The notes below the pieces were generated by a model that worked only from the letters and a program-made list of their open reading frames with translations, was not told the DNA's origin and did not search any database. This document shows, in pieces, positions 12,225-34,660 of a DNA stretch of 64,000 bases. The DNA is from Planktomarina temperata RCA23 (GTDB lineage: Bacteria > Pseudomonadota > Alphaproteobacteria > Rhodobacterales > Rhodobacteraceae). The stretch's first letter is position 1. Every line of letters begins with the position of its first letter. The translations under genes were made by a program, and so were the position numbers. The DNA is taken from contig NZ_CP003984.1 in NCBI RefSeq assembly GCF_000738435.1, positions 1 through 64,000 of the forward strand, in the 5' to 3' direction.

Positions 12225-13477
12225 GCTTTGAAGGCGGCCTGTAGGATGTCACAGGCCATGGCGACATTCTCATTGGAAAACGGCATAGGTGGGCGCAGTT
12301 TCAAAATATTGCGATTGCGCCCTGAGCGCCCCATCAACAGGCCATGATTGCGTGCGTATTCGACGACATGGGCGGCCAAGGCTTCATCGGCAGCACCATC
12401 CGTTTCCAATTCCAAAGCGAAAAACAAACCACGTCCGCGCCGGCTGGCGATGCTGGGGTGGTCCATAGAGTGCAGCTCGCGCAAAAATACAGCACCGACG
12501 TTTTTGGCGTGATCTACCAAATTGTCCTGTTCAATGACGTCCAAAGTGGCCGCAGCCGCGGCGCAGCTTACTGGATTGCCACCAAAGGTGTTGAAATAGC
12601 CAAAGGCGTTGCGAAATTCAGCCATGACGGCCCGGCGTGCGACCACTGCTGCAACCGGATGCCCATTGGCCATTGGTTTGCCCAATGTCACAACATCAGG
12701 TGACAGGCCAAGCCATTCATGGCCCCACCAAGTCTCGCCGCCTCTGCCAAACCCGGGCTGAACCTCATCTGCGATCAACAGCCCTCCGGCGGCTTTGACC
12801 ACTTGCTCGGCGGGCTTCATAAAATTCTGCGGCAAATCTGGCAGGCCTTCATTGGCGAAGGTCGGGCAAAATAGAAAACCCGAAAACCCGTGGCCTGAGG
12901 CCTCAAGATCATCAATGGCAGTTTGCAGCTCCCGTGCAAAAGCCGCGGCCTGATCGTCGGCAGTGCCACCAACCGGGCGCAGGGTGTCCGGCGCAGGGAT
13001 GCGGCGGATATGGTCGGCATAGCCGCCGATGGGGGGCTTGCGCGACGAGAGCTGTGACACGGCCATCGTATTGCCGTGGTAGGTATTATCTGTGGCGATG
13101 ATGCCAGTTTTCCCGGTCACAGCTTGGGCCATGCGCAGGGCAATGTCATTGGCCTCTGATCCGCTGCACACCATGATGACCTGATCCAATTGCGTTTGAA
13201 ATTTGGCGGTGAGCCGCTCGCAATACTCCACAATTCCCGCGTGCAAATAGCGGGTATGGGTGTTCAGCTGAGCGGCCTGTGCGGCGATGGCTGAGACGAC
13301 ATGGGGGTGACAGTGGCCGACATGCGGCACGTTGTTATAACAATCGAGATATTTACGCCCGTCTGCATCCCACACCCAAACACCGTCACCTTTGACCAAA
13401 TGCACTGGGGTTTCATAAAATGTGGGCACATTTGGCCCCAAAACTGCGGCACGCCGCGCCGCGAGATCACTCGACAT
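12221..13477 (-). CDS. Class-III PLP enzyme, AGXT2L (phospho-lyase)-like
   Basis: This 418-aa fold-type I PLP enzyme has the class-III aminotransferase signature LLIADEVQPGFGRGG followed by the PLP lysine in TLGKPMANGHPVAAV. The segment YLDCYNNVPHVGHCHPHVV and the nearby LNTHTRYLH closely match what I recall of the AGXT2L family. Animal members remove phosphate and ammonia from phosphoethanolamine or 5-phosphohydroxylysine instead of transaminating. The adjacent kinase gene, overlapping by 4 bp, fits a kinase then phospho-lyase pathway. A true omega-aminotransferase role cannot be excluded. Confidence 0.82.
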   Translation of the reverse strand: MSSDLAARRAAVLGPNVPTFYETPVHLVKGDGVWVWDADGRKYLDCYNNVPHVGHCHPHVVSAIAAQAAQLNTHTRYLHAGIVEYCERLTAKFQTQLDQVIMVCSGSEANDIALRMAQAVTGKTGIIATDNTYHGNTMAVSQLSSRKPPIGGYADHIRRIPAPDTLRPVGGTADDQAAAFARELQTAIDDLEASGHGFSGFLFCPTFANEGLPDLPQNFMKPAEQVVKAAGGLLIADEVQPGFGRGGETWWGHEWLGLSPDVVTLGKPMANGHPVAAVVARRAVMAEFRNAFGYFNTFGGNPVSCAAAAATLDVIEQDNLVDHAKNVGAVFLRELHSMDHPSIASRRGRGLFFALELETDGAADEALAAHVVEYARNHGLLMGRSGRNRNILKLRPPMPFSNENVAMACDILQAAFKA

Positions 13478-13889
13478 CTTTCACCTTTCCGCGCAGAGAT
13501 TTGACCACGCCGCGCTGAACTTTTCCTGCCAGGCGGCGTTTTTGCGATCCGAGTGTGGGGCGTGTGGCGATCCGGCGCTTTGGCCGTATCAAAGCCTGAA
13601 GGATCAGCTCTTTCAAGCGCTCTTTTGCAATCTCTCGGTTGCGTGCCTGTGAGCGGGTGTCTTCGACGCGAAAAATTATGGCGCCATCGGAGGTCCACTT
13701 GCGGCCGGCCAATTTTTTGAGTCGGGTTTTTACCGGGCCCGGGAGGTTTGGGCTGCGGGCCGCTTCGAAGCGCAATTCGACGGCGGTCGACACTTTATTG
13801 ACGTTCTGTCCTCCAGGTCCCTGCGCACGGGTGAAACTTTCGGTCAGCTCCCAATCGTGAATCATTATTTCATCATTGATTTGCAACAT
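13467..13889 (-). CDS. arfB: Peptidyl-tRNA hydrolase ArfB (ribosome rescue)
   Basis: ArfB (YaeJ) enters stalled ribosomes lacking an A-site codon and hydrolyses the peptidyl-tRNA. The 140-aa protein has the class-I release-factor GGQ motif in QGPGGQNVNKVST. Its basic C-terminal tail (KRRIATRPT... to KVQRGVVKSLRGK) is the part known to thread into the empty mRNA channel. I chose the start MLQINDEIMI because family members begin this way. Its 3' end overlaps the PLP enzyme gene by 11 bp. A terminator-like hairpin and a tiny ORF lie immediately upstream. Confidence 0.93.
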   Translation of the reverse strand: MLQINDEIMIHDWELTESFTRAQGPGGQNVNKVSTAVELRFEAARSPNLPGPVKTRLKKLAGRKWTSDGAIIFRVEDTRSQARNREIAKERLKELILQALIRPKRRIATRPTLGSQKRRLAGKVQRGVVKSLRGKVKDVE

Positions 13890-13910
13890 GGGGCTACTAT
13901 GCCACAAAGG

Positions 13911-13940
13911 AAAAGGGCCGCCCAGAGAGGACGGCCCTTC
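13911..13940 (-). terminator. Intrinsic terminator upstream of arfB
   Basis: Read on the minus strand, an 8-bp GC-rich stem (arms 13932-13939 and 13913-13920, AAGGGCCG with CGGCCCTT on the plus strand) is followed by a short T run. It would end transcripts coming from the queuosine-transporter operon. It lies only 22 bp before the arfB start, so it could also act as an attenuator for arfB. Confidence 0.75.
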
Positions 13941-14011
13941 GAAAGTTGTGCGGAGGGCGGGTCGTTTAGGACCGTTTGCCCAAGCTTGGCGCTAAAACTC
14001 CAAGGGTTGCC

Positions 14012-14068
14012 TCAGAAATTCGCCTCCAAACCTGTTACGACTCCATTCTCCAATACCTTTCTCGACAC
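14012..14068 (-). CDS. Candidate 18-codon ORF with near-ideal Shine-Dalgarno
   Basis: GTG at 14068 opens an 18-codon frame, MSRKVLENGVVTGLEANF, ending in TGA at 14012-14014. It is preceded at ideal spacing (7 nt after AGGAGG) by a sequence complementary to the end of 16S rRNA. It is followed by possible hairpins (a GGTC/GACC arm pair and a CTTGG/CCAAG arm pair) and the terminator at 13911-13940, then arfB. I recognise no homologue. It may be a leader peptide, a small protein or part of a non-coding RNA. Confidence 0.45.
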   Translation of the reverse strand: MSRKVLENGVVTGLEANF

Positions 14069-14084
14069 TGGATCACCTCCTTTC
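14068..14084 (-). promoter_or_regulatory. Extended Shine-Dalgarno, 17-nt match to 16S 3' tail
   Basis: The plus strand reads CTGGATCACCTCCTTTC, identical to the 3' end of alphaproteobacterial 16S rRNA as I know it. The minus-strand transcript can therefore pair with the whole anti-Shine-Dalgarno region, far beyond the usual 4-6 bp. The flanks do not resemble 16S, so this is not an rRNA fragment. Confidence 0.6.
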
Positions 14085-14127
14085 AGCTGTTACATTTACC
14101 CACAGCTTGCCAGAGAGAGACACAAAG

Positions 14128-14772
14128 TCAATGGTTTTTTGCTGTACGTCCCACAAGATATAGCACCAAGAATCGGAACGGCACCAAAGCGATGAGAGCC
14201 AAGGACAGTTTCACAAGCCAATCTGCAACGGCCAGCGAAGCCCAAAGTGGCAGCTCCATACCCGCGCCGAGCAGCGGCACAGCACCCTGTGCCCAGTCTG
14301 GAACATTGCTGGTTTCCAGTCCGTTAAAGAGGGCAGAGAAAGCGATGCTGAAAAAGAGGAAGGTGTCCACAGCACTGCCGATCAGCGTTGAGGCCAGCGG
14401 GGCCCGCCACCATGTGCCATGCCGCAAGCGGTCGAAGATTTGAACATCCAGCAACTGAGCCACCAGAAAGGCGGTGCCAGATCCCAAAGCCACGCGCAGT
14501 GTGACCGCTGGGAAACTATAGCCATCCCCTTGCAGCATGACTTGCGTGCCAATGAGTGAACAAAGAACACCAGCGGCAAAGCCGGCAAAGACCACACGGC
14601 GCGCGGCAGCAACACCATAGACGCGGTTCATCACATCGGTGACGAGAAAGGCGATGGGATAGGTGAATGCACCCCAGGTCAGCCAGTCTCCAAGAAGGAA
14701 CTGAACCAGGATGTTGGAGGCCACAACGACGACAGCCATGGCAAGAATGCCAGGGAGATAGAGAGTTTTCAT
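14128..14772 (-). CDS. yhhQ: Queuosine precursor transporter (VUT family)
   Basis: This 214-aa polytopic membrane protein has about six hydrophobic segments and the VUT/ECF-type family pattern, including FTYPIAFLVTDVMNRVYG near residues 36-53 and STLIGSAVDTFLFFSIAF near 125-142. YhhQ imports 7-deazaguanine precursors such as preQ0 or preQ1 for queuosine in tRNA. It is the last long gene of a minus-strand run that starts at the thioesterase and lies 106 bp after mepA. Confidence 0.9.
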   Translation of the reverse strand: MKTLYLPGILAMAVVVVASNILVQFLLGDWLTWGAFTYPIAFLVTDVMNRVYGVAAARRVVFAGFAAGVLCSLIGTQVMLQGDGYSFPAVTLRVALGSGTAFLVAQLLDVQIFDRLRHGTWWRAPLASTLIGSAVDTFLFFSIAFSALFNGLETSNVPDWAQGAVPLLGAGMELPLWASLAVADWLVKLSLALIALVPFRFLVLYLVGRTAKNH

Positions 14773-34486: not shown

Positions 34487-34532
34487 CACTGGAAGGGATT
34501 GTAAAATCCTTTCGTCAAGACTATCCAGTACC

Positions 34533-34613
34533 TACCTCGGGGCGCCCTTATGGGCTGAGATGCGAAAGCGAACCCGTAGAACCTGAACCGGCTAGTACCG
34601 GCGGAGGGAAGGT
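34533..34613 (+). promoter_or_regulatory. TPP riboswitch (thi box) controlling thiBPQ
   Basis: The segment has the conserved thi-box elements in order: CTCGGGGCGCCC, GGGCTGAGATG, ACCCGTAGAACCTGAACCGG, and GCGGAGGGAAGG. This RNA binds thiamine pyrophosphate and lowers expression of thiamine genes. Downstream, TCTCCA (34621-34626) can pair with TGGAGA (34650-34655), which contains the thiB ribosome site. TTGGA (34614-34618) can instead pair with TCCAA (34623-34627). A translational switch is therefore likely. Confidence 0.95.
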
Positions 34614-34660
34614 TTGGACGTCTCCAATCCCTGACCCCGTTCGGCGATATGGAGATAAAG

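Follow-up and report, generated by a model that had tools for sequence, protein, structure and literature searches.

The interval between yhhQ and arfB in Planktomarina temperata RCA23 probably encodes an independent, mRNA-like small RNA of ~190 nt that engages ribosomes, and its pattern of conservation suggests that initiation and termination matter to this RNA and that the peptide does not. The window, the whole 64,000-nt stretch of DNA analysed, carries on its minus strand, in order, the end of a yhhQ-like gene, a promoter-like pair, GAAAGGAGGTGATCCAG, a short ORF with a GTG start, a folded stretch, a terminator-like hairpin and arfB (Table 1). The original prediction had read this interval as a ribosome-sensing leader of arfB. 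The anatomy that it described, from a 16S-tail match through a GTG, an 18-codon ORF, hairpins and a terminator to arfB 22 nt further on, is borne out by the coordinates, and the arfB ATG at 13889 lies 22 nt past the terminator stem. Conservation of the element, the promoter pair, the terminator, the pattern of start and stop codons and the covariation of helices P2 and P3 are supported computationally. Ribosome engagement is likely central to the element.

Table 1. Features of the yhhQ-arfB interval, in window coordinates
Feature	Coordinates	Strand	Basis and remarks
yhhQ-like Vut_1 gene	14128..14772	-	domain match; constant upstream neighbour
Promoter-like pair, TTGACT 14131-14126 and CAAGCT 14109-14104, 16-nt spacer	14104..14131	-	assigned by eye from the family pattern
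Extended Shine-Dalgarno (SD), 17-nt 16S-tail complement ending on the G of the GTG	14068..14084	-	exact match, binding energy; kept in family and class
18-codon ORF, GTG start, TGA stop, MSRKVLENGVVTGLEANF	14012..14068	-	start and stop codons kept; amino acids not beyond other frames
P1 5' strand, partner 13965-13951	14037..14052	-	fold; strand swap
P2, 14033-14026 with 13989-13982, encloses P3	13982..14033	-	fold; strand swap
P3 hairpin, stop codon 14014-14012 in 5' strand, loop CAAC	13991..14023	-	fold; strand swap
P4 small hairpin	13969..13981	-	fold; weak covariation, z = -2.1
P1 3' strand, holds local anti-SD CCCTCC	13951..13965	-	fold; strand swap
Intrinsic terminator of the small RNA	13912..13940	-	terminator scan; 12-pair stem
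CATAGT, -10-like hexamer at -12..-7 before the arfB ATG	13896..13901	-	position of the TANNNT peak; not an exact TANNNT
arfB, 140 aa, RF-1 domain	13467..13889	-	ORF and domain match

The element is conserved across the family and beyond

The family of the window is Rhodobacteraceae in the GTDB sense, whose named members are placed in the NCBI Paracoccaceae and Roseobacteraceae. DNA of the window element matched 23 of 41 relatives, some by short pieces only, and a scan of named genomes with AAAGGAGGTGATCCAGTGTC returned at least 119 stretches. Among the matches listed, and others, 166 loci were sorted into 86 of class 1, with ORFs of the type VSRxxLExGVGT, and 80 of class 2 or other types (VSHCH and more), the latter with record names that include Rhizobiales, Caulobacterales and Acetobacterales genera. 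R1, a covariance model built from class 1, matched 183 of 198 family genomes and 182 of 197 genera, some of them weakly. When 160 genomes were drawn from the whole phylum, R1 matched 6/6 of the family genomes among them and 25 of the 38 other genomes of the class that were listed; outside the class it gave weak matches in 6 genomes (E 6.9e-5 to 9e-4). The upstream neighbour is constant: yhhQ lies within 1200 nt in 81/86 class-1 loci and precedes 13 of the 13 class-1 loci in which no adjacent arfB was found (12 informative, 1 uninformative).

Two family loci with arfB downstream, L041 and L047, begin VSH or MSH like class 2 and continue partly as class 1. Two other family genomes carry an unrelated ORF in place of the class-1 type (L036 in G206, MSSDYSMM...; L042 in G228, VSSEFSV...).

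A near-maximal complement of the 16S tail precedes the ORF

The original prediction held that the element contains a 17-nt match to the 16S 3' tail. GAAAGGAGGTGATCCAG (14084-14068, minus strand) is the exact 17-nt reverse complement of that tail in two rRNA operons of the same genome, the 16S identity of both having been confirmed by Rfam. A search of the 3.29-Mb genome allowing up to 3 mismatches gave 0-mismatch matches in the two rRNA operons and at the arfB-side site only, and the next-best match had 2 mismatches. Binding of the 20-nt 16S tail was compared over 63,980 20-nt segments taken in 2-nt steps along both strands of the window. The strongest binder was the extended SD, at -35.0 kcal/mol, and the best unrelated site reached -24.6. 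AAAGGAGGTGATCC, with at most 1 mismatch, occurs once in the window against 0.01 expected.

A larger family set was assembled from 160 loci, of which 4 had no SD match; the remaining 156 gave 150 after removal of duplicates and 147 after removal of L029, L036 and L042, which are of other type. In the SD region of these 147 sequences, 63 substitutions keep the 16S pair and 16 break it, 11 of the latter being C at one position; transition bias alone would favor some of the 63 pair-keeping changes. Four loci stand outside this count, three with a small deletion in the extended SD (L264, L297, L321) and one misplaced (L328). Part of the set (L021-L050) came from a pattern allowing 2 SD mismatches, so the invariance of the SD is somewhat overstated, and the class-2 loci were found by an exact 20-mer and are therefore uninformative on SD variation.

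Start and stop codons are kept and the peptide is not

The ideally spaced GTG and 18-codon ORF of the original prediction are present at 14068-14012, with the GTG at 14068-14066, 7 nt after GGAGG. Among 385 genomes of the class, the SD is followed by a start other than GTG in 19 cases, distributed as 15 ATG, 4 TTG and 0 CTG. The ATG starts are spread over 11 families and the 4 TTG starts fall in one; at least one of the 19, L184, belongs to a much longer frame. A stop occupies codon 19 in 137 of the 147 family sequences (TGA 64, TAG 49, TAA 24) and TGG occupies it in none; the other 10 ORFs stop after 12 to 24 codons. The 18-codon length is kept in 83/86 of the class-1 set. The restriction of starts to ATG, GTG and TTG, together with the use of all three stops at a fixed codon, indicates that the ORF is probably translated.

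The same sequences carry no signal of selection on the amino acids. The purifying selection expected of a microprotein gene was not found in a pN/pS test of 78 distinct ORFs, restricted to pairs with 12 differences or fewer: the ratio was 0.76 in frame versus 0.73 and 0.68 in the two shifted frames. The N-terminal two thirds of the peptide look conserved in class 1, the last codons are almost free, and the peptides of relatives look unrelated.

At ~1500 in L184, the same extended SD is followed by an ATG and a frame that remains open through all 50 codons translated and resembles a signal-peptide protein (MSHGAKPVIAVLFGISALLTAGVASAC...); this is perhaps a coding gene that uses the same initiation region. 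AGTCGTAACA, at 14043-14034 of the minus strand within the ORF, is also present close to the 3' end of 16S in the genus of the window. The sequence is different in other genera (for example GTCGGAACA), and the sharing is thus probably due to chance.

The stop codon lies within covarying helices

The window RNA folds with z = -3.2 relative to shuffles. P1 pairs codons 6-11 with the stretch before the terminator and begins at ~+17 from the start codon, which we take to be about the front edge of a start-bound ribosome. RNAalifold was run on a gapped 53-row alignment (53 of 64 dereplicated rows) and returned 22 pairs in total, namely the terminator, a 3-pair core of P3 and a small number of short pairings within the SD and codons 6-11; the P1 region gave other pairs, and P2 was not recovered from this alignment. 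P2 was probably missed because the variable middle misaligns, and the helices were therefore tested by a strand swap, in which 3' strands are exchanged among sequences in unaligned segments.

In 60 sequences the strand-swap z values were -4.1 for P1, -11.6 for P2 and -11.9 for P3, with controls at -0.2 and +2.5. This set comprised 60 of the 64 dereplicated rows, the other 4 having no ACA anchor, and some misplaced 3' anchors were kept. A set of 95 further rows, which overlapped the first (5 identical, 18 at >=85%), gave -3.3, -14.5 and -12.8 for P1, P2 and P3 (controls +3.0, +3.3, +0.5), and 77 non-overlapping rows, each <85% identical to any of the first 86, gave -2.4, -12.8 and -11.7 (controls +2.5, +3.2, +1.0). 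These values support P2 and P3 well, P1 moderately (its covariation is weak in the 77 non-overlapping rows) and P4 weakly. The two small hairpins of the original prediction belong to this larger conserved fold. In the comparison of codons with base pairs that had been proposed alongside it, the helices around the stop codon covary strongly, and amino acids are kept no better than in other frames.

The loop of P3 is CARN in 126/147 family sequences by a simple pattern. Several variant loci (L081, L159, L042, L192-L196) share an EQP-like part of the ORF; the GAGCAGCC-like stretch from which it is read is similar to the P3 loop CARC.

Single-sequence folds were computed with the footprint of a ribosome masked. 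The body still folds when the SD and start are masked; an early-elongating ribosome removes P1 and P2, and a ribosome at the stop removes P2 and P3 and leaves P1. In the free fold, the tail of the terminator is paired to part of the SD. Pairing of the SD with the local anti-SD is absent from all four single-sequence folds and had strand-swap z values of -3.1, -3.4 and -3.7 in the 60-, 95- and 77-row sets; the SD hardly varies and no fold holds this pairing, so it is only a possibility. An antiterminator candidate, the 5' arm of the terminator with a CCGGCCC stretch, was dropped by eye as not general.

The small RNA has its own promoter-like and terminator-like signals

The -35 hexamer of the promoter-like pair overlaps the yhhQ stop codon, and the 5' end of the small RNA is predicted near 14097. 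In 88 of the 125 dereplicated sequences of the family, the SD is preceded by TTG[AC] and YANNNT with a 15-19-nt spacer (shuffled mean 2.9, maximum 7), and the upstream logo also shows an A/T tract. A sigma-70 scan of the window did not list the pair. The presence of a promoter pair whose distance to the SD is constant favors transcription of the RNA in its own right over processing from yhhQ. The terminator scan gave 4 such sites in the scanned region against 4.4 expected by chance, and the assignment of the terminator at 13940-13912 therefore rests on its strength and conservation. Our own scan, which had no shuffle control, detected a hairpin followed by a T-rich stretch in 86/86 class-1 loci, and such hairpins are present also where arfB is not adjacent. 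The intrinsic terminator of the original prediction is upheld by these data.

arfB is a frequent neighbor that may be transcribed separately

arfB lies within 500 nt downstream in 73/86 class-1 loci. It is absent from that range in 12 others with at least 700 nt covered, 4 of which have arfB 735-1130 nt away, and 1 further locus is uninformative. The invariable presence of arfB directly downstream that an attenuator calls for is thus not observed. The downstream neighbors in its place are an EamA-like transporter, an amidase-like gene or opposite-strand ORFs (names assigned by eye). In the larger set of 147 family loci, arfB starts within 450 nt in 124 and further away in 1, and no arfB was found in 22, one of them with <600 nt covered. 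The arfB start falls 173 to 735 nt after the SD. Among the matches listed, arfB was found in 0 of the 80 class-2 and other loci within the sequence covered, which was <700 nt downstream in 8 of them.

The regions just upstream of arfB contain a positioned hexamer. TANNNT occurs at -12 in 19 of 124 regions and in no more than 4 at any other offset; at -13..-11 it occurs in 23/124, where shuffles averaged 3.3 and none of 2000 reached 23. SD 4-mers at -16..-5 were counted in 27/124, a figure without a background estimate. The column signal is modest: A at -11 was present in 45% of the larger set versus 66% of a first set rich in the genus of the window. This pattern suggests that arfB has its own promoter and a leaderless mRNA in part of the family. 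arfB transcripts that always start past the terminator had been named as an outcome that would refute the leader; the -10-like excess at -12 points to such starts, but as a deduction from sequence that applies to part of the family. Cis coupling is still conceivable, because arfB is within 450 nt in most family loci.

The RNA is a likely relative of CC2171

The Rfam model RF01867 (CC2171) matched the window element with 40.3 bits (E 2.5e-7, model positions 1-159), below its gathering score of 75 bits. The same model matched 29/41 relatives at E<=0.001, one of them above the cut-off and outside the family, and among 14 control genomes only Caulobacter vibrioides. Seven of 18 loci, mostly of class 2, exceed the RF01867 cut-off at the element. 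R1 found the element in 60/60 loci from other alphaproteobacteria and two gammaproteobacterial MAGs (E 5.7e-15 to 1.3e-4), a score that is partly by construction because these loci were chosen for holding the SD.

CC2171 and the window RNA share a 5' block around AACA..GAAAGGAGGUGAUCCAGUGUC, in which the extended SD is followed by GUGUC, a length of ~160-200 nt, a short ORF from GUG and a GC-rich terminator; a helix that closes early codons on the stretch ahead of the terminator is a possible further shared trait. The window RNA differs in its score, in the fold of the body, which is distinct between class 1 and the CC2171-type groups, and in its place beside yhhQ and mostly beside arfB. The consensus closing helix of RF01867 (CAUUGUCA with UGACAAUG) keeps only some of its pairs in the window alignment, and P1 lies elsewhere in the ORF and has another sequence. 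The SD block contributes much of what the two share, and it could have arisen by convergence on the 16S tail. Complementarity to 16S does not prescribe the UGUC after the SD, the AACA before it, the length or the terminator. From these sequence features, the window RNA is likely a divergent relative of CC2171 by common descent. Class-2 relatives have the same extended SD and a short ORF; unlike the window, they have varied neighbors (20 loci looked at) and no arfB in the 80 loci.

CC2171 is filed as an sRNA in Rfam and appears in the accessible parts of a Mesorhizobium sRNA table and an Rfam table. No function for CC2171 was found in the literature searched, supplements aside, and the RNA may be in print under another name. 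The arfB-side RNA is not named in the accessible text of PMC4117421, PMC11005374, PMC3927594, PMC10117765, PMC13009471 or PMC5082802.

L094 and L120, from MAGs recorded as SAR92 cluster and Cellvibrionales, carry AAAGGAGGTGATCCAGTGTC followed shortly by a GGGAGCC...GGCTCCC-TTTT terminator-like hairpin. This stretch is a very short analogue of the alphaproteobacterial RNA and adjoins tRNA genes in L094.

A model for ribosome engagement and its alternatives

The transcript, its translation, its remodelling, its target and its sensing role are what we infer from these signals. Transcription of the RNA would begin at a dedicated promoter immediately past yhhQ and finish at a dedicated terminator. 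The 5' end of the RNA would grip the 16S 3' tail over 17 nt, and a ribosome would begin at the GUG (AUG or UUG in some relatives), read ~18 codons through the folded body and stop inside P3. Selection would act on ribosome entry, the fixed ORF length and the RNA fold, and not on the peptide sequence. Occupancy would remodel the RNA, as predicted from single-sequence folds, with the body intact under a start-bound ribosome, P1 and P2 lost in early elongation and P2 and P3 lost at the stop. Conservation of the start, the stop and the fold but not of the peptide makes translation itself the likely signal or output. The RNA may report on initiating ribosomes or act as a sink for them, with an output in trans or through its own stability, and arfB adjoins the RNA but is probably transcribed at least partly from a promoter of its own, as a leaderless mRNA. 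A tentative extension, which we consider possible but doubtful, is an alphaproteobacterial RNA family that gauges or buffers free 30S subunits, defined by a near-maximal 16S complement, a peptide-indifferent ORF of fixed length and a stop in a covarying hairpin, in which occupancy would set the fate of the RNA or its activity in trans. A 30S-gauging family of this kind is not described as such in the literature searched.

The promoter pair bears on two other readings of the locus. Processing of a 3'-UTR-derived sRNA from the yhhQ transcript, the simpler alternative offered with the original prediction, would account for the presence of yhhQ within 1200 nt upstream in 81/86 loci, but the pair with its 15-19-nt spacer in 88/125 sequences versus a shuffled mean of 2.9 makes this origin very improbable. 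The same pair removes support from the RNA as a leader of arfB, as do the 12/86 class-1 loci without adjacent arfB and the finding of arfB at 0/80 class-2 loci. In such a cis attenuator, a ribosome on the short ORF would alter read-through of the terminator and thereby set arfB transcription. The conserved order of SD, ORF, fold, terminator and arfB agrees with that arrangement, as do the proximity of arfB in 124/147 family loci and the 22-nt gap in the window. We nevertheless judge it distinctly unlikely: TANNNT is enriched at -13..-11 before arfB (23/124), the terminator-like hairpins occur also where arfB is not adjacent, no arfB was found near the 80 relatives elsewhere among the matches listed, its distance from the SD varies from 173 to 735 nt, and no general antiterminator pairing was noticed by eye.

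The remaining readings differ in what they make of the ORF. In a non-coding, trans-acting sRNA the SD-like 5' end would pair with rRNA or with CCUCC-type targets and the ORF would be incidental. The Rfam entry of CC2171 as an sRNA and the strong fold and terminator agree with this, but the pattern of start-codon substitution and three interchangeable stops at one codon are hard to obtain without translation, and we hold a non-coding RNA to be unlikely. If instead the RNA were a small mRNA for a functional microprotein, the retention of start, stop and length and the conserved look of the N-terminal two thirds (VSRxxLExGVGT) would be expected; the pN/pS no lower than in shifted frames, the almost free last codons and the unrelated look of the relatives' peptides render that improbable.

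Comparison with known systems

Leader-peptide attenuators of the trpL type place a short translated ORF upstream of a terminator, and the window RNA resembles them in this respect. It differs from them in having no diagnostic codon run and no antiterminator that was noticed, and in a downstream gene that is not constant and is probably transcribed separately. One such attenuator RNA, rnTrpL, occurs as an sRNA too, as described in the accessible text of PMC10117765. Ribosome profiling in S. meliloti, in the same accessible text (PMC10117765), gave some annotated sRNAs a translation efficiency of >=1, and these may be small mRNAs. Extended SD sites of S. aureus, as presented in the available portion of PMC13009471, resemble that of the window in SD-anti-SD pairing close to the start codon; they belong to ordinary mRNAs and uORFs of another phylum, whereas the window has a dedicated small RNA with a 17-nt 16S-tail complement. 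Pos19 of Rhodobacter sphaeroides is likewise a small RNA described as coding in a related bacterium, but it has 219 nt and is RpoE-dependent; it is set beside the window RNA by its description in the accessible part of PMC5036791 only.

For CC2171, the analysis provides a concrete, testable property: the RNA looks translated, with start, stop and fold kept and the peptide not. It also adds a CC2171-related branch that is present in most sampled genera of the window's family and is missed by the Rfam cut-off. If the RNA does sense or soak up initiating ribosomes, it would tie gene control to translation capacity in a new way across a large group of bacteria, among them marine, soil and symbiotic ones. 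Elsewhere in the window, a TPP riboswitch (RF00059) at 34528-34626 on the plus strand is the sole Rfam match at the curated cut-off.
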